Assembly (NCBI GenBank): GCA_013426015.1
Contig: CP058998.1
Location: 62,001-126,000 of the forward strand
Direction of reading: 5' to 3'
Length of the DNA: 64,000 nucleotides
Source of the DNA: Candidatus Fermentimicrarchaeum limneticum
GTDB taxonomy: Archaea > Micrarchaeota > Micrarchaeia > Burarchaeales > Fermentimicrarchaeaceae
Made by a program: the position numbers and the translations under genes
Shown: positions 8,571-24,617 of the stretch, piece after piece
Layout: each line of letters starts with the position of its first letter
How positions within the stretch are numbered: position 1 is the stretch's first letter
The notes under the pieces: model-generated
The model's input: only the letters and a program-made list of their open reading frames with translations
What the model was told of the DNA's origin: nothing
The model's database searches: none

Positions 8571-8646
8571 TTGAAAATACGTATCCTAACGATGTTATAC
8601 CAATGTCGAATATACATATAAAAACCTCCTTTTTCTTAACTAGTTT

Positions 8647-9204
8647 GTGAGAATAATACTCGCCTTGACAGGAGCCTCAGGAATCCAGATAGGCATAAGG
8701 CTAGCCGAGGCTCTGAGGAAGCACGAGCTGCACATAATAGTCAGCGAGACTGCTAAGAAAGTTATGAATTATGAGGTTGAGAGTGCAGACAAGGTTCTCT
8801 CCAAAATGAAGAAGTATGGAAAAGTCTATGACGAGTCTGCAATAGACGCCGCCCCAGCTTCAGGCTCCTCTCTTTTCGATGCGATGGTGGTGTGCCCGTG
8901 CTCTATGAAAACGCTCTCTGCAATTGCAAACGGATACTGCTGCAACCTGATAACAAGAAGCGCTGACGTTATGCTGAAGGAGGGAAGGAAGCTCATCCTA
9001 GTACCAAGGGAGACACCTGTCAGCGCAATCCATCTGGAGAACATGCTGAAGCTGTCCAGGCTTGGGGTCGTGATACTGCCTGCATCTCCGGCTTTCTACC
9101 ACAAGCCTAAAGGAGTCGGAGACATGGTTGATTTCATAGTGGGCAAGATTCTGGATTCTCTGGGAATACAAAATCAATTGTACAAAAGGTGGGGCAGGAA
9201 ATGA
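8647..9204 (+). CDS. ubiX: UbiX-like flavin prenyltransferase
   Basis: A 185-residue flavoprotein that joins dimethylallyl phosphate to FMN to make prenylated FMN, the cofactor of UbiD decarboxylases. The N-terminal LTGASGIQIGIRLAEAL, the CPCSMKTLSAIANG segment and the RETPVSAIHLENML active-site region are all present. It starts at GTG 8647. A TATA-like tract at about 8609-8618 lies some 30 bases upstream and there is no ribosome binding site, so the transcript is probably leaderless. As first gene of the isoprenoid cluster it provides the cofactor for the UbiD gene two positions on. Confidence 0.93.
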   Translation: MRIILALTGASGIQIGIRLAEALRKHELHIIVSETAKKVMNYEVESADKVLSKMKKYGKVYDESAIDAAPASGSSLFDAMVVCPCSMKTLSAIANGYCCNLITRSADVMLKEGRKLILVPRETPVSAIHLENMLKLSRLGVVILPASPAFYHKPKGVGDMVDFIVGKILDSLGIQNQLYKRWGRK

Positions 9205-9569
9205 AAATCACAATCGGCCAGGTGTTCATAATAGCTGGGTCCCTCCTGGTGTCCGGAGGTTTGCTGGTGCCTTCAGAAAGTCAAAAAACCTTCGAGCTGA
9301 GCGAAATTTTTGCGTTGGTCATACTCTGGGCGTTCTCCCTCTCTGCTTTGTTATTCCATGATAAAATCTTCAAGAGGGACATTGTTCTTCTCACCGTGAT
9401 TCCAATCCTTGCGTTGGGCTTCCTGTGGCTGGTGCTCAACCTAAGCTCCTTCCTGCTTCTTGCGCCAAGACGGTTCAACACTTACGCAATCCTCTTCGGC
9501 TGGGTGATATTCAACACCGGCCTTTATCTTGATACGAAGAAAGCTTTGAAAGAATCTTCCAAGGGGTGA
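9201..9569 (+). CDS. Four-helix membrane protein in isoprenoid operon
   Basis: A 122-residue integral membrane protein with four predicted hydrophobic helices separated by short charged loops. I recognise no family. The ATG at 9201 overlaps the ubiX stop (ATGA), indicating translational coupling, and the ubiD gene follows 4 bases after its stop. Placement between the two suggests a link to isoprenoid or lipid synthesis at the membrane, but nothing in the sequence shows a catalytic role. Confidence 0.75.
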   Translation: MKITIGQVFIIAGSLLVSGGLLVPSESQKTFELSEIFALVILWAFSLSALLFHDKIFKRDIVLLTVIPILALGFLWLVLNLSSFLLLAPRRFNTYAILFGWVIFNTGLYLDTKKALKESSKG

Positions 9570-9573
9570 GAGA

Positions 9574-10866
9574 ATGCTCAGGGATTTCATAAAGCGGCTA
9601 AAGCTCTCGGATGAGCTTGTTGTCATAAAGAAGCCCGTCAGCAGGAAATTCGTTGCAGCGGGAATAATGAAGGAGCTGGACGGGAAGCCCGTCCTTTTCG
9701 AGAGTATAAAGGGAAGCAACTTTAAGGTTGTCGGAAACGTATTTTCAACAAGAGAGCTCATCGGGAAATCACTCGGAATTCCGAAGGAGAAGCTGCTCTT
9801 CAAGATTGCGCATGCAATAGACAACCCAAGCGAGCCCCAGCTTGTTGAGAAAGCACCGTGCCACGAGGTTGTCGAAGAGGAGGTAGACCTGAACAAGCTG
9901 CCCATACTGACTCACTGCAAGAAAGATGGTGGACCATATGTCACTTCTGGAGTTATTGTTGCGAAAGATCCCAAACTTGGGAGGAACTGCTCCTTCCACC
10001 GGCTGATGCAGCTGGACAAGAGAAGGTTCGTGATGAGAATTCTGCCAAGACACCTGAACGAATTCATAAAGAGGAACGGCGGCGAGCTTGATGTGGCGGT
10101 CTGCATAGGAAACTCAGTGAACTTCCTGCTGGGAGGTGCAACCTCGGTTGAGCTTGGGTTTGATGAAATGACTATTGCGAACACGCTTGAGAAGCTGCCA
10201 ATAACATACTGCAAGAGTGTTGACATTGAGGTACCGGCATACAGCGAGTTTGTGCTCGAAGGGAGAATCACAAAGGAGCTAGTCCCGGAAGGTCCGTTTG
10301 TCGATTTGACGGAAACATACGACGTCATCAGGGAGCAGAATGTGCTTGAGGTAAAGAAGATAACCCACAGGAAGGATGCTCTCTACCATGCGCTCCTGTC
10401 TGGATGCAACGAGCACAAGTTGCTGATGGGGATTCCAAGAGAGCCGACAATATTCAGAGAGGTAAACAAGGTCTGTGAATGCAGGGATGTGGGCCTCACT
10501 CTTGGAGGCTGCTCCTGGCTGCATGCAGTTGTGAAGATAAGGAAGAGGAAGGAGGATGACGGCAAGAGGGCAATAGAGGCTGCATTCAAGGGACATGCCT
10601 CGCTGAAGCACGTGGTTGTCGTTGACAATGACATAGACATCTACAACCCCCTTGATGTTGAGTGGGCAGTGGCCACCCGTTTCCAGGCAAAGGACGGGCT
10701 GGTTGTGAAACCGCACGAGAAAGGTTCCTCGCTTGACCCATCGGCAAATCCCTTCACAAGGGAAACAAGCAAAATGGGCCTTGATGCAACTGCACCATTG
10801 AAGAAGAAGCTGAAGGACTTCCGCAAGGCAGAATTCCCGAGGGTTAGACTGGGGAGGTATCTCTGA
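9574..10866 (+). CDS. UbiD-family decarboxylase, likely anhydromevalonate phosphate decarboxylase
   Basis: 430 residues, full-length UbiD fold. The prenyl-FMN/metal-binding region NCSFHRLMQLDKRRFVMRI, an E-V-P segment (VDIEVPAYSEFVLEG) and a catalytic-region Glu (EGPFVDLTETY) are visible. UbiD enzymes need the cofactor made by UbiX, encoded just upstream. Because aconitase-X subunits, IPK and IDI2 follow immediately, the likely substrate is trans-anhydromevalonate 5-phosphate, giving isopentenyl phosphate. That is inference from context plus the known Aeropyrum pathway; the sequence alone does not fix the substrate. Confidence 0.88.
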   Translation: MLRDFIKRLKLSDELVVIKKPVSRKFVAAGIMKELDGKPVLFESIKGSNFKVVGNVFSTRELIGKSLGIPKEKLLFKIAHAIDNPSEPQLVEKAPCHEVVEEEVDLNKLPILTHCKKDGGPYVTSGVIVAKDPKLGRNCSFHRLMQLDKRRFVMRILPRHLNEFIKRNGGELDVAVCIGNSVNFLLGGATSVELGFDEMTIANTLEKLPITYCKSVDIEVPAYSEFVLEGRITKELVPEGPFVDLTETYDVIREQNVLEVKKITHRKDALYHALLSGCNEHKLLMGIPREPTIFREVNKVCECRDVGLTLGGCSWLHAVVKIRKRKEDDGKRAIEAAFKGHASLKHVVVVDNDIDIYNPLDVEWAVATRFQAKDGLVVKPHEKGSSLDPSANPFTRETSKMGLDATAPLKKKLKDFRKAEFPRVRLGRYL

Positions 10867-12032
10867 TGCACCTCACGAGAGAGGAGGAGAACATACTGAA
10901 CGGGGAGCAGGGGAATGCCGCAGCCAAGGCAATGGAAATACTTGTTGCGATAGGCAAGGTATTCGGAGCCGAGAAGCTCATCCCCGTGACATCTGCCCAG
11001 ATTTCCGGCGTGAGCTACAAGACGATTGGCGATGCCGGCCTGGAGTTTCTTGAGAATTTCGCAAAGGACGGCAGAGTCAGAATACCAAGCTACCTGAATC
11101 CTGCTGGGATGGATTTGGAGGAGTGGAGCAGGCTCGGCTTTTCCAAGGAGTTTGCAAGGAAGCAGATGAGGATAATCAAGGCATACCAGAAGATGGGCGT
11201 TGAAGCCACATGCACCTGCACCCCGTACCTGATAGGAATCCTGCCCAAGAAAGGGGAGCATGTAGCGTGGAGCGAGAGCTCTGCGGTCATCTTCGCAAAC
11301 TCAGCGCTTGGTGCCAGGACGAACAGGGAGAGCGGCATGAGCGCTCTTGCATCCGCAATTGTCGGAAAAACCCCATATTTCGGCTATCATCTTGACGAGA
11401 ACAGGGTTGCCAGCTTGGTTGTCAACGTGAAAGCGAAGCTTGAGGACATATCCGACTTCGGTGCATTGGGGATCTACACGGGCGCAATAGCCAAGCAGAG
11501 GGTTGTCGCGTTTGACGGAATAGAAACAGTCACGGTTGACGAGGTAAAAACACTGGGGGCTGCCCTTGCTGCGTCAGGTGCTGTTGCGCTCTTCTTCATA
11601 AAGGGGATTACCGACGAGTGGAGGGTTGCCGACAAGCCCGAGAGGATTGAGTTCGGCAGCAGGGAGCTTAGGGAGACGAAAGAGAACTTGAATTCCTCAA
11701 GGGATGCAGAGCTCGTCGCGGTGGGATGTCCCCACTGTTCCCTTGAGGAGATAAGGGAGATAGCGGAGAGGGTGAGAGGAAAGAAGCTGAAAAGAAAGCT
11801 ATGGGTCTGCACAGCCAGGAAGATAAAGAGAAAGGCTGACAAGCTTGGTCTTACAAAAGTAATCGAGGAGGCAGGAGGAAGAGTTGTAAGCGACACCTGC
11901 ATGGTGGTATGCCCTCTAGAGGAGCTTGGTTTTGAAAGAACAGCGGTAAACTCCGGCAAGGCTGCGCATTACCTGCCGAGCTTCTGCGGGCAGAAGGTGC
12001 TTTTCGGCTCGCTTAAAGAGATATTACGGTGA
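10866..12032 (+). CDS. Aconitase X catalytic subunit, likely phosphomevalonate dehydratase large subunit
   Basis: A 388-residue aconitase-X (DUF521) large subunit. Cys positions that can hold an iron-sulfur cluster are in ATCTCTPYL, GCPHCSLEE and DTCMVVCPLEELGF. The conserved YLNPAGMDLEEW and ANSALGARTNRE stretches are present. In archaea this protein with its small partner dehydrates mevalonate 5-phosphate to trans-anhydromevalonate 5-phosphate. Its start overlaps the UbiD stop by one base, and the small subunit follows 4 bases after its stop, so the subunits should be made together. Confidence 0.92.
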   Translation: MHLTREEENILNGEQGNAAAKAMEILVAIGKVFGAEKLIPVTSAQISGVSYKTIGDAGLEFLENFAKDGRVRIPSYLNPAGMDLEEWSRLGFSKEFARKQMRIIKAYQKMGVEATCTCTPYLIGILPKKGEHVAWSESSAVIFANSALGARTNRESGMSALASAIVGKTPYFGYHLDENRVASLVVNVKAKLEDISDFGALGIYTGAIAKQRVVAFDGIETVTVDEVKTLGAALAASGAVALFFIKGITDEWRVADKPERIEFGSRELRETKENLNSSRDAELVAVGCPHCSLEEIREIAERVRGKKLKRKLWVCTARKIKRKADKLGLTKVIEEAGGRVVSDTCMVVCPLEELGFERTAVNSGKAAHYLPSFCGQKVLFGSLKEILR

Positions 12033-12036
12033 AAAA

Positions 12037-12435
12037 ATGGTGATAAGAGGTAGAGTGATCTCAAAGGGAAAGGCGGAGGGAGAGGCACTTGTCAGCAGAG
12101 AAGAGATAAGCTTCCTGGGGGAGGTTGACACGAAAACAGGCGTTGTCACCAACCCGAAGCATCAGCTTTTCAACAAATCCATTGCAGGCAGAATCCTTGT
12201 CTTCCCGCGAGGCAGGGGCTCAACTGTAGGCTCATATGCTTTATACCAGCTGAAGAAGAACGGGAAGGCGCCGAAGGCGATTATCAACGAGGAGGCTGAG
12301 GTGATTGTTGCTGTTGGTGCTATAATCTCTGAGATTCCAATGGTGGACAAGCTGGAGAAGAATGCATTCAGGCTTATAAAGGATGGAAGCAAACTTGTTG
12401 TGGATGGAAACAAAGGAGTTGTGGTGATTAAATGA
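12037..12435 (+). CDS. Aconitase X swivel subunit, likely phosphomevalonate dehydratase small subunit
   Basis: A 132-residue DUF126 swivel domain. It contains GRVISKGKAEGEALVS at the start, the FPRGRGSTVGSY substrate-binding loop and a C-terminal DGNKGVVVIK strand. It pairs with the upstream large subunit; in many bacteria the two are fused. GGTGA lies directly before the ATG. The following kinase gene overlaps its stop by four bases (ATGA). Confidence 0.92.
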   Translation: MVIRGRVISKGKAEGEALVSREEISFLGEVDTKTGVVTNPKHQLFNKSIAGRILVFPRGRGSTVGSYALYQLKKNGKAPKAIINEEAEVIVAVGAIISEIPMVDKLEKNAFRLIKDGSKLVVDGNKGVVVIK

Positions 12436-13229
12436 ACGAGCTTGTTTTTGTCAAACTTGGCGGAAGCCTCATAACCGACAAGACAAAGCCATTCACTGCG
12501 AGGATGGATGTCATAAAGAGGCTTGCCAGGGAGATTCACGCGGCGAAGAAGGAAAGAAAGCTGAAGGTGGTGGTGGGGCATGGAGGAGGGTCATTCCCTC
12601 ATGTCCCTGCAAAGAAATACGAAGTTCACAAGGGAGTGGTAAGCCCAGAAACCTACAGGGGCATTGCAGAGGTGCAGGATGCGGCTTCAAGGCTGAACAG
12701 GATGGTTGTCGAGAGCCTGATGGAGGCAGGTGAAAACGCGGTGTCGGTGCAACCGTCTGCATGTGCGGTGGCAAAGGGCGGCAGGATAGTCCATTTTGAC
12801 GTTAAGCCGATGAGGAGGATGCTTGTGGAAAACCTGCTTCCCGTTCCATATGGTGATGTGGTTGTTGATCTGGAGAAAGGGTGCGCCATACTCTCGACAG
12901 AGATGATTTTTGACTATCTTGCAAGAAAGCTCAAGCCGAGCAGGATTATTCTTGCCGGCATTACAGACGGCGTTTTCACGTCCGATCCTCAGCTCGATCG
13001 GAAGGCAGAGAGGATAGAGGAGATAACGCCCGCGAACTTCGAGAAAATAAAATCTGCTTTAAAGGGGTCAGCAGGAATAGACGTCACCGGCGGGATGCTG
13101 CACAAGGTTGAAATATTGCTCGGGCTTGCAGAACTGGGAATACCGAGCATCATAATAAACGGTTTGGGAGAGGGGAACCTGAAGAATGCTCTCCTAGGCA
13201 GGAAGGAAGGAACCGCCATCCACAGGTAG
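12432..13229 (+). CDS. Isopentenyl phosphate kinase
   Basis: A 265-residue amino-acid-kinase-fold enzyme that phosphorylates isopentenyl phosphate to IPP with ATP. Motifs: KLGGSLITDK (nucleotide binding), GHGGGSFPH (contains the catalytic-site His), GITDGVFTSDP and DVTGGMLHKVE. It is the marker enzyme of the archaeal mevalonate routes. It is coupled to the dehydratase small subunit by ATGA overlap. A TATA-like element for the next gene lies just past its stop. Confidence 0.95.
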   Translation: MNELVFVKLGGSLITDKTKPFTARMDVIKRLAREIHAAKKERKLKVVVGHGGGSFPHVPAKKYEVHKGVVSPETYRGIAEVQDAASRLNRMVVESLMEAGENAVSVQPSACAVAKGGRIVHFDVKPMRRMLVENLLPVPYGDVVVDLEKGCAILSTEMIFDYLARKLKPSRIILAGITDGVFTSDPQLDRKAERIEEITPANFEKIKSALKGSAGIDVTGGMLHKVEILLGLAELGIPSIIINGLGEGNLKNALLGRKEGTAIHR

Positions 13230-13257
13230 AAATTTATATACCCCTCCAAAATATAAC

Positions 13258-14349
13258 ATGGCAAAATCTACAACCGAGAGGAGGAAATCCTCGCATCTTA
13301 GGATATGTTCCACAAAGAATGTCGAATTCGCACATAAGACTACCGGATTTGAGGATGTAGACTTCATCCACAGGGCGCTTCCTGAGCTTGGCGTGGATAA
13401 AATTGACATAACATGCAGCGCATTTGGCAAGAGGCTTTCTGCGCCCTTCTTCATAGAGTCAATAACCGGAGGTTCAGCGGAAGCAAAGAGAATAAACAAG
13501 TCACTGGCAGCAGCTGCGGAGAAAGCCGGAGTTGCAATGGGACTGGGCTCCCAGCGTGCAATGATTGAGAATCCATCACTTTCCGATACGTACTGTGTGA
13601 GGGATGTCGCCCCGGATATACTCCTGATTGGCAACATAGGCATCGCGCAGTTGATGGAGTACGATGTCAGGAGAATAACGGATGCTGTCGATTGCGTAGG
13701 TGCTGATGCCATTTTTGTTCATCTGAACGCCCTGCAGGAGGCAATACAGCCCGAGGGCAACAGGAACTTTGAGAAGTGCCTCTCCTACCTGGAAAAGTTC
13801 ACCTCCCAGCTCAGCATACCCGTGATAGCAAAGGAGACCGGAGCGGGAATTTCGAGAGATGTTGCAGCTGCGCTGTCAAAGGCAGGAGTAAAGGGAATAG
13901 ATGTTGCGGGGGCAGGGGGAACCTCCTGGGGCGCGGTAGAACTCCACAGGAATTCCCAAGGGCATGAATCATTCTGGGAGTGGGGCATCCCCACCGCCCT
14001 TTCAGTTGTTGAGGTTGCAGGTACGTGCAAGCTTCCTATCATCGCAAGCGGAGGGATTCGCTCTGGATGTGATGCCGCAAAGGCAATAGCCCTTGGAGCT
14101 GATTACGCGGGGGCTGCACTGCCTTTCCTGAAAGCGGCAGAGAAGGGGGAGAAGGCTGTTTTTGATGAATTGGAAAGATGGAAGGAGCAGCTAAAAATCT
14201 GCATGTTCCTGACGGGTTGCGAGAATCTTAAATCACTGGCAAACAGTCCGCTCATAATAACCGGCAGAACAGCGGAGCTTTTCAGGCTTAGAGGGATAAG
14301 CCCTGAGGGCTTTGCTAATAGAAGGGAGCATTCCAAGATGATACTGTAG
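13258..14349 (+). CDS. fni: Type 2 isopentenyl-diphosphate isomerase
   Basis: A 363-residue FMN- and NADPH-dependent isomerase that interconverts IPP and DMAPP. TIM-barrel motifs visible: THKTTGFEDVDF-like N-terminus, ESITGGSAEA, GLGSQRAM, HLNALQEAIQPEG (HxNxxQE site), KETGAGIS, GTSWGAVE and SGGIRSG. Although cotranscription from upstream is possible, a TATA tract at about 13231-13240 sits some 25 bases before the ATG, so it probably also has its own leaderless transcript. It completes the isoprenoid cluster. Confidence 0.95.
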   Translation: MAKSTTERRKSSHLRICSTKNVEFAHKTTGFEDVDFIHRALPELGVDKIDITCSAFGKRLSAPFFIESITGGSAEAKRINKSLAAAAEKAGVAMGLGSQRAMIENPSLSDTYCVRDVAPDILLIGNIGIAQLMEYDVRRITDAVDCVGADAIFVHLNALQEAIQPEGNRNFEKCLSYLEKFTSQLSIPVIAKETGAGISRDVAAALSKAGVKGIDVAGAGGTSWGAVELHRNSQGHESFWEWGIPTALSVVEVAGTCKLPIIASGGIRSGCDAAKAIALGADYAGAALPFLKAAEKGEKAVFDELERWKEQLKICMFLTGCENLKSLANSPLIITGRTAELFRLRGISPEGFANRREHSKMIL

Positions 14350-21329: not shown

Positions 21330-22636
21330 TGGACATCGATTTCCTCGCGAGATTAGTGGAGCTCGATACGAATTCGGACAGCAAGAGCAACTACTCAGAA
21401 TGTGCTAGTCTCATAGGGAGAAAAGCACGAAATCTCGGGTTCCATGTCGAAGTCCATAACGCCGAAGCCGAAGACAGAAAACCACGACCTAATGCAGTAA
21501 TAGAACTCGATGCCGACGCCAAGCAAACGCTGCTTCTGGCAACTCATTACGATGTAGTAGGGGCAGGAGATGGCTGGAAGCATCAACCATTCAAGCTCAC
21601 GATTGAAAGAGGGAGAGCGTACGGGAGAGGAGCTGCCGACGACAAGGGAGGCGTAGTATCCGCTCTTTCGGCAATTGAAACTCTTAAGAGTAAAGACTCA
21701 TCAAAAGTGAATGTGAAATTGCTCATTACCTGCGATGAAGAAATTGGTGGTGAGCGTGGTTTGGGGTATCTAATGGGTATGAAACGGGATGGGCGTTCTC
21801 TTATCGATGGAGACGCGGCCATACTCATCGACGCAGGTCCTAGAGTTTACATCGGTTCTAGCGGCAGAGCCGCTGGGAGAATACGGGTGGATGACCCTCT
21901 CCCAGAACTTGTTTCGCTTCTCTCAAAGGTTGTTGACTACTCGGAAGAGAGGGAGAAAGTTCTCTCAAGATTGATAAGCGCATCCACGAAGAAGAGAATC
22001 CAGGGCAGAATTTCCGTGACAATGCTAGACCTGAGTGCAGGCGCTGTTGAATATGCGAAAGCAGGCGTGAAGTCAAACATAATACCGGGCGAGTGCCGTT
22101 TAAAATTGAAGGGTGAGAAAGAGAAGCTGGTTATTGGGAAGCAGGCCCATGCTGGCTATCCTCATCTGGCGAAGAATGCAATAGAGCAGTCATTGCCTCT
22201 CCTTAAGAAGGTAGCGGATTTGTCTGATGGCAAGGGCAGGTGCGAGTTCGTTTTTGACCTCCGAACAACCCCTGAAGAAAATCTGGATTCTGCTATTTTG
22301 GATTTTGAGAAATATGTCAGAACAATAAACCCGCAGCTCGAGTTTAGAATAGAAGAAAGGACTGAAGGGTATGTCATTCCTGAAACCCATCCATTCGCTG
22401 AAATGATGAAGAGGGCAACTGGAGAGAAAAATGTTTATGGGGAGCTGGGAGGCACGGACGCGCAGTTCTTCTGCAGGAGGGGAATCCCATCAGTCTGCTT
22501 CGGTCCAGTCTCTGATGAAAGCAGCATACACGGCAAGGACGAGTTCGTGAAAATAAAGGATTTGGAGTTTGTTTCAAGCTCAATTGTTAGGCTGTGCGAG
22601 GATTGGAGAAACTTCAAAATCTCTCGTTATGGATGA
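21329..22636 (+). CDS. M20-family zinc peptidase/deacylase
   Basis: A 435-residue M20 metallohydrolase (ArgE/DapE/carboxypeptidase group). Metal and catalytic motifs: ATHYDVV (His-x-Asp), GRGAADDKGG (bridging Asp), CDEEIGGERG (catalytic Glu pair), ILIDAGP and GGTDAQFF, with a late His in SIHGKDEF. A lid/dimerisation domain lies in the middle. Substrate cannot be told from sequence: an amino-acid amide, peptide or acetylated amine is possible. The ATG at 21329 overlaps the stop of the repeat protein, with GGGGTG 5-8 bases upstream. Confidence 0.88.
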   Translation: MDIDFLARLVELDTNSDSKSNYSECASLIGRKARNLGFHVEVHNAEAEDRKPRPNAVIELDADAKQTLLLATHYDVVGAGDGWKHQPFKLTIERGRAYGRGAADDKGGVVSALSAIETLKSKDSSKVNVKLLITCDEEIGGERGLGYLMGMKRDGRSLIDGDAAILIDAGPRVYIGSSGRAAGRIRVDDPLPELVSLLSKVVDYSEEREKVLSRLISASTKKRIQGRISVTMLDLSAGAVEYAKAGVKSNIIPGECRLKLKGEKEKLVIGKQAHAGYPHLAKNAIEQSLPLLKKVADLSDGKGRCEFVFDLRTTPEENLDSAILDFEKYVRTINPQLEFRIEERTEGYVIPETHPFAEMMKRATGEKNVYGELGGTDAQFFCRRGIPSVCFGPVSDESSIHGKDEFVKIKDLEFVSSSIVRLCEDWRNFKISRYG

Positions 22637-23135
22637 GCTCCTCAAGCTTTCTTCTTGGGGTGAGTTGGGGTTGCTCATCCGCATATCCTACAAGCAGCAT
22701 TGAAACAGGCTTCGTATTCTGCCTTGCATTTATTATCTGTGCAACTTCCTTCTCGTCAAAAGCCCCGACCCACACAGATGCCAAGCCGAGTGCAGTGGCA
22801 GCGAGCTGCGCGTAGGCGGTTGCTATCGTTGCGTCCTGGATGCAGTACAGCTCGGCGCCTCTCTTTCCGTATCTCTTAGAAGATCTATCAGCATTTGTCA
22901 GAAAAATGAGCACAACAGGTGCTTTTGCTATGAACTCCTGCTCGAAGGCTGCGCTTACCAGCTTCTTCTTCCTCTCGGCATCTTTCACAACAACTATCTC
23001 GTAAGCCTGCAAGTCACCCGCAGAGGGGGCCGAGTTCGCCGCTTCCAGAATCTTAAGGAGCTTCTCGTCCTCAACCTCCTTATTCCCGAATTTCCTTGCA
23101 GAGTGTCTGCTCCTCAGCACTTCAAAGAATTCCAT
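22614..23135 (-). CDS. Nitroreductase-family flavoprotein
   Basis: A 173-residue FMN-binding oxidoreductase. The SRHSARKF start, NSAPSAGDLQAYEIVVV, DATIATAYAQLAATALGLASVWVG and a late helix fit the nitroreductase superfamily. Substrate unknown; members reduce nitro or quinone compounds or act in cofactor metabolism. The 3' end overlaps the convergent M20 gene by 23 bases. AGGTG lies 4 bases before the ATG. Confidence 0.88.
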   Translation of the reverse strand: MEFFEVLRSRHSARKFGNKEVEDEKLLKILEAANSAPSAGDLQAYEIVVVKDAERKKKLVSAAFEQEFIAKAPVVLIFLTNADRSSKRYGKRGAELYCIQDATIATAYAQLAATALGLASVWVGAFDEKEVAQIINARQNTKPVSMLLVGYADEQPQLTPRRKLEELIHNERF

Positions 23136-23606: not shown

Positions 23607-24617
23607 ATGGGTTGTGTAATGTATCCTATGGCATCTGCGCCAGGCAGCCTCAAGCTATTCGGCGAGCACGCCGTGGTATACAACAGGCTAGCCCTTTCAG
23701 CAGCTTTCAACCGCAGGGCATTCTGTGAGGTTAGTCCCGTGCAGAGAGGGATAACCGTCAATCTTAAGGATTTGGGTAAGAGGCGAAAGTTCAATTTCAA
23801 CGAAGTGCTCAGGAGCTACACCGAACTGAAGGGTATGGTAGAAAGAGGGGACATGCATGGACTTGCCAAGGCCAGGAAGGACGTATTCTCGCCGTACAAG
23901 ATGATACTGGGGGACTTCTTCCGCGAGTTTGGCTTCACTGCAATAGACGTATCAATCAATTCCGATGTTCCGCGCAACTCAGGCCTTGGCTCAAGTGCTG
24001 CCGTATTCTGCTCGCTTGCCGCAGCGCTGAACAGTTTTGTTCACGGCGGATTGGGCAGGGAGCAGCTCGCCGAGCTTGCAAACTTAGGAGATAAGGTGGT
24101 GCACGGCAACCCCAGCGGACTTGATGCCAGCACATGCACCTTCGGCGGCTACATATCATTCAGGAGAGGAGAGGGGATAAACCCCTTGAAAATAAAGACC
24201 GAAGTGCCGATGCTTGTTGTCAACACCGGCTCGCAGAAGGACACAGGCGAGATGATAGGCAGGGTTGCCGAGAGATACAAGACGGATAAGAGGGGGGTCG
24301 GCAGAATATTCGACAGGATGGAGGACACTGCTCTGAGCGGCATAAGGGCGCTGAAGTCCTCCAACCTGAAAAAGCTGGGAGGGAATATGAACACTGCCCA
24401 GGAGTGCTTCCGGGAGCTTGGACTCTCGACTCCGGGGATAGAGAAGATAATAGAAACTGCAATGAACAACGGAGCTCTTGGGGCGAAGATAACTGGTGCT
24501 GGCGGAGGGGGGTGCGTCATAATTCTTACGAAGGAACCAGGCGAGTTAACCTCAATCTACAAAAGGATGGGTTGCGAGTCCTTCCAGACCCTCCTTGGCG
24601 TTGAAGGAGTGAAATAA
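23607..24617 (+). CDS. mvk: Mevalonate kinase
   Basis: A 336-residue GHMP kinase that makes mevalonate 5-phosphate, the substrate of the aconitase-X dehydratase at 10.9-12.4 kb. Motifs: SAPGSLKLFGEHAVVY, PRNSGLGSSAAV (phosphate loop), GNPSGLDAST and GAKITGAGGGGCV. An A/T-rich TATA-like tract lies about 20-25 bases before ATG 23607, so leaderless translation is likely; in-frame ATGs at 23619 and 23628 are alternatives. It is separated from the other isoprenoid genes by 9 kb. Confidence 0.94.
   Translation: MGCVMYPMASAPGSLKLFGEHAVVYNRLALSAAFNRRAFCEVSPVQRGITVNLKDLGKRRKFNFNEVLRSYTELKGMVERGDMHGLAKARKDVFSPYKMILGDFFREFGFTAIDVSINSDVPRNSGLGSSAAVFCSLAAALNSFVHGGLGREQLAELANLGDKVVHGNPSGLDASTCTFGGYISFRRGEGINPLKIKTEVPMLVVNTGSQKDTGEMIGRVAERYKTDKRGVGRIFDRMEDTALSGIRALKSSNLKKLGGNMNTAQECFRELGLSTPGIEKIIETAMNNGALGAKITGAGGGGCVIILTKEPGELTSIYKRMGCESFQTLLGVEGVK

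Follow-up and report, generated by a model that had tools for sequence, protein, structure and literature searches.

The gene cluster at 8647-14349 of the window, by which we mean the whole 64,000-nucleotide stretch of Candidatus Fermentimicrarchaeum limneticum DNA that was analysed, very probably encodes the lower part of the archaea-type (anhydromevalonate-phosphate) mevalonate pathway, arranged as an operon. The organism is a DPANN archaeon of the Burarchaeales (Micrarchaeia; phylum Microcaldota, i.e. Micrarchaeota) whose family is not that of Burarchaeum, and its genome assembly comprises 1,204,341 bases in two contigs with 96.9% completeness, so that about 3% may be missing. Since this pathway has already been described as the dominant mevalonate pathway of archaea, most DPANN included (PMC11052028), the cluster is confirmatory, and the locus is a further example of a known pathway type, ordinary for archaea, in which a membrane protein is the sole unexplained element.

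Seven genes, all intact and all on the + strand, make up the cluster. The flavin prenyltransferase UbiX, which makes prenyl-FMN (8647-9204; PF02441; TIGR00421, 234 bits versus a cut-off of 109), was matched over its full length by the solved UbiX 6m8v (E 2.6e-58), and is followed by a 122-aa membrane protein with four predicted helices (9201-9569) and by a UbiD-family decarboxylase (9574-10866) matching all three Pfam domains of UbiD (PF20695, PF01977 and PF20696). Then come the large subunit of aconitase X (AcnX), a putative phosphomevalonate dehydratase (10866-12032; PF04412, 530 bits), the small (swivel) subunit (12037-12435; PF01989, 121 bits; NF003046, 183 bits versus 163), isopentenyl phosphate kinase (IPK, 12432-13229; NF040647, 222 bits versus 120) and type 2 isopentenyl-diphosphate isomerase (IDI2, 13258-14349; TIGR02151, 409 bits versus 281). 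Mevalonate kinase (MVK, 23607-24617, +; TIGR00549, 223 bits versus 163) lies ∼9 kb away from the operon, which counts against the pathway reading; a nitroreductase-family gene (22614-23135, −) lies divergently ∼470 bases upstream of it. A preliminary description of this DNA had placed the seven genes consecutively and MVK at 23.6 kb, and both the order and the coordinates were verified; its statement that the genes mostly overlap by 1-4 bases holds for three of the six junctions (UbiX/membrane protein, 4 bases; UbiD/AcnX large, 1 base; AcnX small/IPK, 4 bases), whereas two are 4-base gaps and IPK/IDI2 is a 28-base gap.

The tight gene run from UbiX to IPK (8647-13229), i.e. UbiX, membrane protein, UbiD, AcnX large, AcnX small and IPK, is most likely one six-gene operon. 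A TATA-like box, tataaaaac (8617-8625, +), precedes UbiX, is conserved among the four members of the genus that were compared, and is the likely operon promoter. Another TATA-like sequence, tttatata (13233-13240, +), is located in the IPK/IDI2 gap, 18-25 bases 5′ of the IDI2 start, and two sister genomes have an AT-rich TATA-like sequence at a similar distance; this could be a separate leaderless promoter, and IDI2 is perhaps transcribed from it in addition to the operon. The gene order is repeated in sister species and, minus the membrane gene, across the phylum, and thus is not a matter of chance. Convergent to IDI2, an ECF-type S component of the riboflavin-transporter family (PF07155; 14396-14914, −) is encoded and retained in two sister species with 71-77% identity; that it supplies flavin for UbiX and IDI2 is speculation.

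We infer the following reactions from which genes are present, the families they belong to, their conserved residues, the UbiD clade, the co-occurrence of AcnX with UbiD, and the absence of a rival kinase and decarboxylase. MVK would convert mevalonate to mevalonate 5-phosphate, which the two AcnX subunits, carrying a three-cysteine [4Fe-4S] cluster, would dehydrate to trans-anhydromevalonate 5-phosphate. UbiX is expected to prenylate FMN, and UbiD, with the prenyl-FMN, to decarboxylate trans-anhydromevalonate 5-phosphate to isopentenyl phosphate. IPK would then produce IPP, and IDI2 would interconvert IPP and DMAPP.

The membrane protein was assigned the ATG at 9201 as its start rather than the GTG at 9189, because this ATG is retained in the genus alignment. 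It matches no known family: no Pfam, NCBIfam or PDB match was obtained, its predicted structure gave no significant fold match, and a search of viral contigs yielded none. The AlphaFold model places the four helices at residues 5-22, 33-51, 60-79 and 94-121 with low confidence (pLDDT 62). The gene occurs in four of the five genus genomes, namely that of the window and, as orthologues, three of the four others; the fifth assembly also lacks AcnX and UbiD and so says nothing on this protein. In all four species the gene occupies the UbiX/UbiD junction, its start and stop signals overlapping or adjoining those of its neighbours, and the protein is predicted to be translationally coupled. Outside the genus none rose above noise among 301 genomes of the phylum, the weak matches there (E 0.002-0.008) being short, scattered and partly stop-broken, and in sister genera UbiX directly adjoins UbiD. 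Its dN/dS is 0.12-0.22, versus 0.05-0.12 for the neighbour genes measured, and its identity to two sister species is 47-50%, versus 77-87% for the neighbours. The membrane protein is thus real, conserved and under purifying selection, yet fast-evolving.

Most likely, it is a lineage-specific accessory that is co-expressed but not catalytic. It is quite probably a passenger, or serves an unrelated membrane function and is merely co-transcribed, as suggested by its restriction to the genus, its fast evolution and its lack of homologues, and by the many unrelated genes inserted at various junctions of archaeal operons of this type; less expected of a passenger is its retention, translationally coupled, at one and the same junction in each of the four species in which the locus was found.

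A different role for the membrane protein was considered in the light of a second small protein found in such operons. Between UbiD and AcnX large, 24 of the 80 named archaeal loci, as well as two sister genera of the window (G038 and G129), encode a protein of about 103-125 residues (105 aa quoted) resembling LpdD, such as at L073:3616-3924, L095:3519-3851, L101:9693-10007, L120:9693-10007, L160:8400-8768 and L161:12313-12687(−), with ∼20 more. All 16 members aligned matched PF21758, their profile found the LpdD crystal structures (E 2.6e-10), and a predicted model (pLDDT 95) superposed on LpdD with TM-scores of 0.81-0.88. LpdD acts as a chaperone of reduced prenyl-FMN and contributes to the activation of UbiD (PMC10865409), and the archaeal protein may by its sequence and modelled fold be a similar prenyl-FMN chaperone. 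The paper on the LpdD chaperone mentions neither archaea nor mevalonate (PMC10865409), and no other paper that we found links LpdD to archaeal mevalonate operons; the presence of these genes may help in practice to obtain archaeal UbiD in active form. The window genome encodes no LpdD-like protein, so chaperone use would appear to differ between lineages of the same pathway.

Encoded at the UbiX/UbiD junction in four species, where start and stop signals overlap, under purifying selection, and in a genome lacking the LpdD-like gene that two sister genera have, the membrane protein could work in the decarboxylation module, docking UbiX and UbiD at the membrane or helping to load or mature prenyl-FMN in replacement of the LpdD-like chaperone. 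However, hhalign shows no similarity to LpdD (probability 0.1%), the protein has diverged far faster than its neighbours, and most genomes of the phylum with AcnX do without either protein, which makes a replacement unnecessary. We therefore regard this role as improbable. The same low probability applies to the protein being an active UbiX/UbiD partner by which isopentenyl-phosphate synthesis, or the hand-over of prenyl-FMN, is held at the membrane in this lineage, which is devoid of the LpdD-like chaperone that many other archaea use. Homology to LpdD was rejected by the same hhalign comparison; the protein also has no PF21758 match, and its predicted structure is helical, with no significant fold match. 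Other Micrarchaeota carry unrelated-looking membrane ORFs of ∼200 aa with 5-7 hydrophobic stretches elsewhere in the operon (L058:11139-11735, L022:2639-3235 and L023:2532-3245). Among 10,415 ORFs, the window protein and this larger one found each other at E 0.01-0.09; controls with reversed sequences, however, reached E 0.045-0.06, and hhalign gave 21%, so homology was not established. The UbiD-AcnX large gap of L058 also holds a membrane ORF, of 74 aa with two hydrophobic stretches, that likewise looks unrelated.

Returning to the pathway enzymes, the best solved match of AcnX large was the Thermococcus AcnX 7cnr, over the full length (E 1.8e-107). Its residues C118, C288 and C345 do not vary across 12 sequences and line up with cysteines in 7cnr; by order and spacing they would be equivalent to Cys122, 297 and 356 of the Aeropyrum pernix phosphomevalonate dehydratase, which mutagenesis identified as the three [4Fe-4S] ligands (PMC10040528). 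The family matches assign the pair to the heterodimer-type (large plus small, type II) phosphomevalonate dehydratases and not to the hydroxyproline-dehydratase type, whose model scored AcnX large at 288 bits, far under its cut-off of 700. A similar gene group surrounds AcnX in many archaea: among 80 named AcnX loci, 17 have at least five of the seven genes (MVK counted) within 8 kb, and the full set is present in two, L082 from Aenigmatarchaeota and L116 from Diapherotrites.

A tree of 88 UbiDs (LG+C20, IQ-TREE) grouped the window UbiD with its genus (support 100/99), and this group falls within a larger clade (100/99) of 67 archaeal UbiDs linked to AcnX. That linkage, rather than an assayed protein, defines the clade, as the 88 sequences do not include the characterised UbiDs of A. 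pernix and Methanosarcina mazei. E. coli UbiD, VdcC, HmfF, the indole-carboxylate decarboxylase AnInD and 11 UbiDs from AcnX-less genomes of the phylum fell outside this clade; the window protein thus did not group with the aromatic-acid decarboxylases. Its closest solved relative is 6h6v/6h6x, which we take to be HmfF. The catalytic Glu-Arg-Glu/Asp network of UbiD decarboxylases is present as R-E-D, with R143, E239 and D244 invariant in 12 relatives and aligned with HmfF and E. coli UbiD; an aspartate is also found at the D244 position in E. coli UbiD, and such Glu/Asp variation is documented (PMC5818171). Among 295 genomes of the phylum, 72 encode AcnX, 104 UbiD and 69 both, and the three AcnX-bearing genomes devoid of UbiD are each 55-73% complete; as the Fisher test on this co-occurrence (p 8e-37) ignores the relatedness of genomes, the tree is the better evidence. 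The window UbiD is therefore a probable trans-anhydromevalonate 5-phosphate decarboxylase on sequence grounds.

Within the window family, the UbiDs of genera g2-g4 (L159, L160 and L161) grouped with those of Thermoplasmatota and Methanomassiliicoccales (100/100) rather than with the window genus. The LpdD-like protein is also encoded in two of these three loci, which suggests a replacement of UbiD and chaperone by horizontal transfer; on the UbiD tree, three changes of the LpdD label suffice among the AcnX-linked rows. The AcnX-less Micrarchaeota of families f7 and f8 (L144-L151 and L153-L155) have a different UbiD, 24-29% identical to that of the window, which adjoins a UbiX in three loci; for the one locus of the main group that was scanned, the best model was menaquinone decarboxylase, below cut-off.

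Such UbiX-linked UbiDs in AcnX-less families of the phylum, and the aromatic, quinone and hydroxyproline enzymes known in the UbiD and AcnX families, could mean that the window UbiD and UbiX use an aromatic or quinone precursor and AcnX hydroxyproline, with the adjacency of IPK and IDI2 incidental. This is very improbable: most UbiDs of the AcnX-less families share just 24-29% identity with the window UbiD, which belongs to a separate, fully supported clade; the hydroxyproline-dehydratase model falls far short on AcnX large; AcnX is split into two subunits like the archaeal type; and AcnX, UbiD and IPK remain grouped across archaea.

Genome-wide, the window MVK is the only GHMP kinase (a single PF00288 match), and there is one UbiD. 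No GHMP-type decarboxylase was found above cut-off, the mevalonate-decarboxylase domain matching MVK alone and below cut-off; phosphomevalonate kinase and mevalonate-type decarboxylases are therefore absent from the assembly. Namely, neither a GHMP-type phosphomevalonate kinase, nor a diphosphomevalonate or phosphomevalonate decarboxylase, nor a Thermoplasma-type decarboxylase-like enzyme, was detected in the assembled genome (97% complete), which thus holds no complete classical mevalonate pathway. The alternative, that the cell relies on a classical, haloarchaeal or Thermoplasma-type pathway and that the cluster is a relic, has a precedent in the Thermoplasma-type mevalonate genes of other Micrarchaeota (PMC8975820), but is hardly credible with one GHMP kinase and no such decarboxylase in the genome, with cluster genes all intact and with dN/dS of 0.05-0.12 for UbiX, UbiD, AcnX large and IPK. 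The earlier proposal of a nearly complete anhydromevalonate-phosphate route in one cluster, which would give a function to otherwise ambiguous UbiD, UbiX and AcnX homologues, is supported by the UbiD clade, the missing rival enzymes and the joint occurrence of UbiD in 69 of 72 AcnX-bearing genomes.

Upstream of the archaea-type route, an acetyl-CoA thiolase (NF053570, 618 versus 600 bits), a small partner protein and HMGS share one operon, and HMGR is present; downstream, one prenyl diphosphate synthase and GGGP synthase were found. Combining the window genes with the rest of the genome, the gene set is gap-free from acetyl-CoA to the first ether-lipid step (checked up to GGGP), suggesting that the cell is probably able to build isoprenoid chains by itself. 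In this 1.2-Mb DPANN genome of the Burarchaeales, the archaeal route is thus encoded in full, acetyl-CoA through IPP/DMAPP, and this lineage may not need a host for isoprenoid precursors.

Compared with known systems, the LpdD-containing operons of Thermoplasmata, Methanomassiliicoccales and the sister genera G038 and G129 share the order of UbiD and the AcnX large and small subunits with the window but have the PF21758 gene between UbiD and AcnX large, where the window genome has none. The L116 and L082 clusters likewise bring together, over a few kb, UbiX, UbiD, both AcnX subunits, IPK and IDI2, but differ in having MVK within 8 kb of AcnX, no membrane protein, and other genes inserted. By reading of the sequence, ORFs like HD-domain, HAD-type and NUDIX-type hydrolases occur inside the DPANN mevalonate clusters of L114, L124, L125, L116 and L082, and one like a nitroreductase between AcnX large and small in L011. 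With the archaea-type pathway of A. pernix and M. mazei, the system predicted from the window genes has in common MVK, a heterodimeric AcnX with three conserved cysteines, UbiD, UbiX and IPK, as well as the absence of phosphomevalonate kinase and GHMP decarboxylase; it differs in gathering more genes into one operon than many archaea do, and in the extra membrane-protein gene between UbiX and UbiD.
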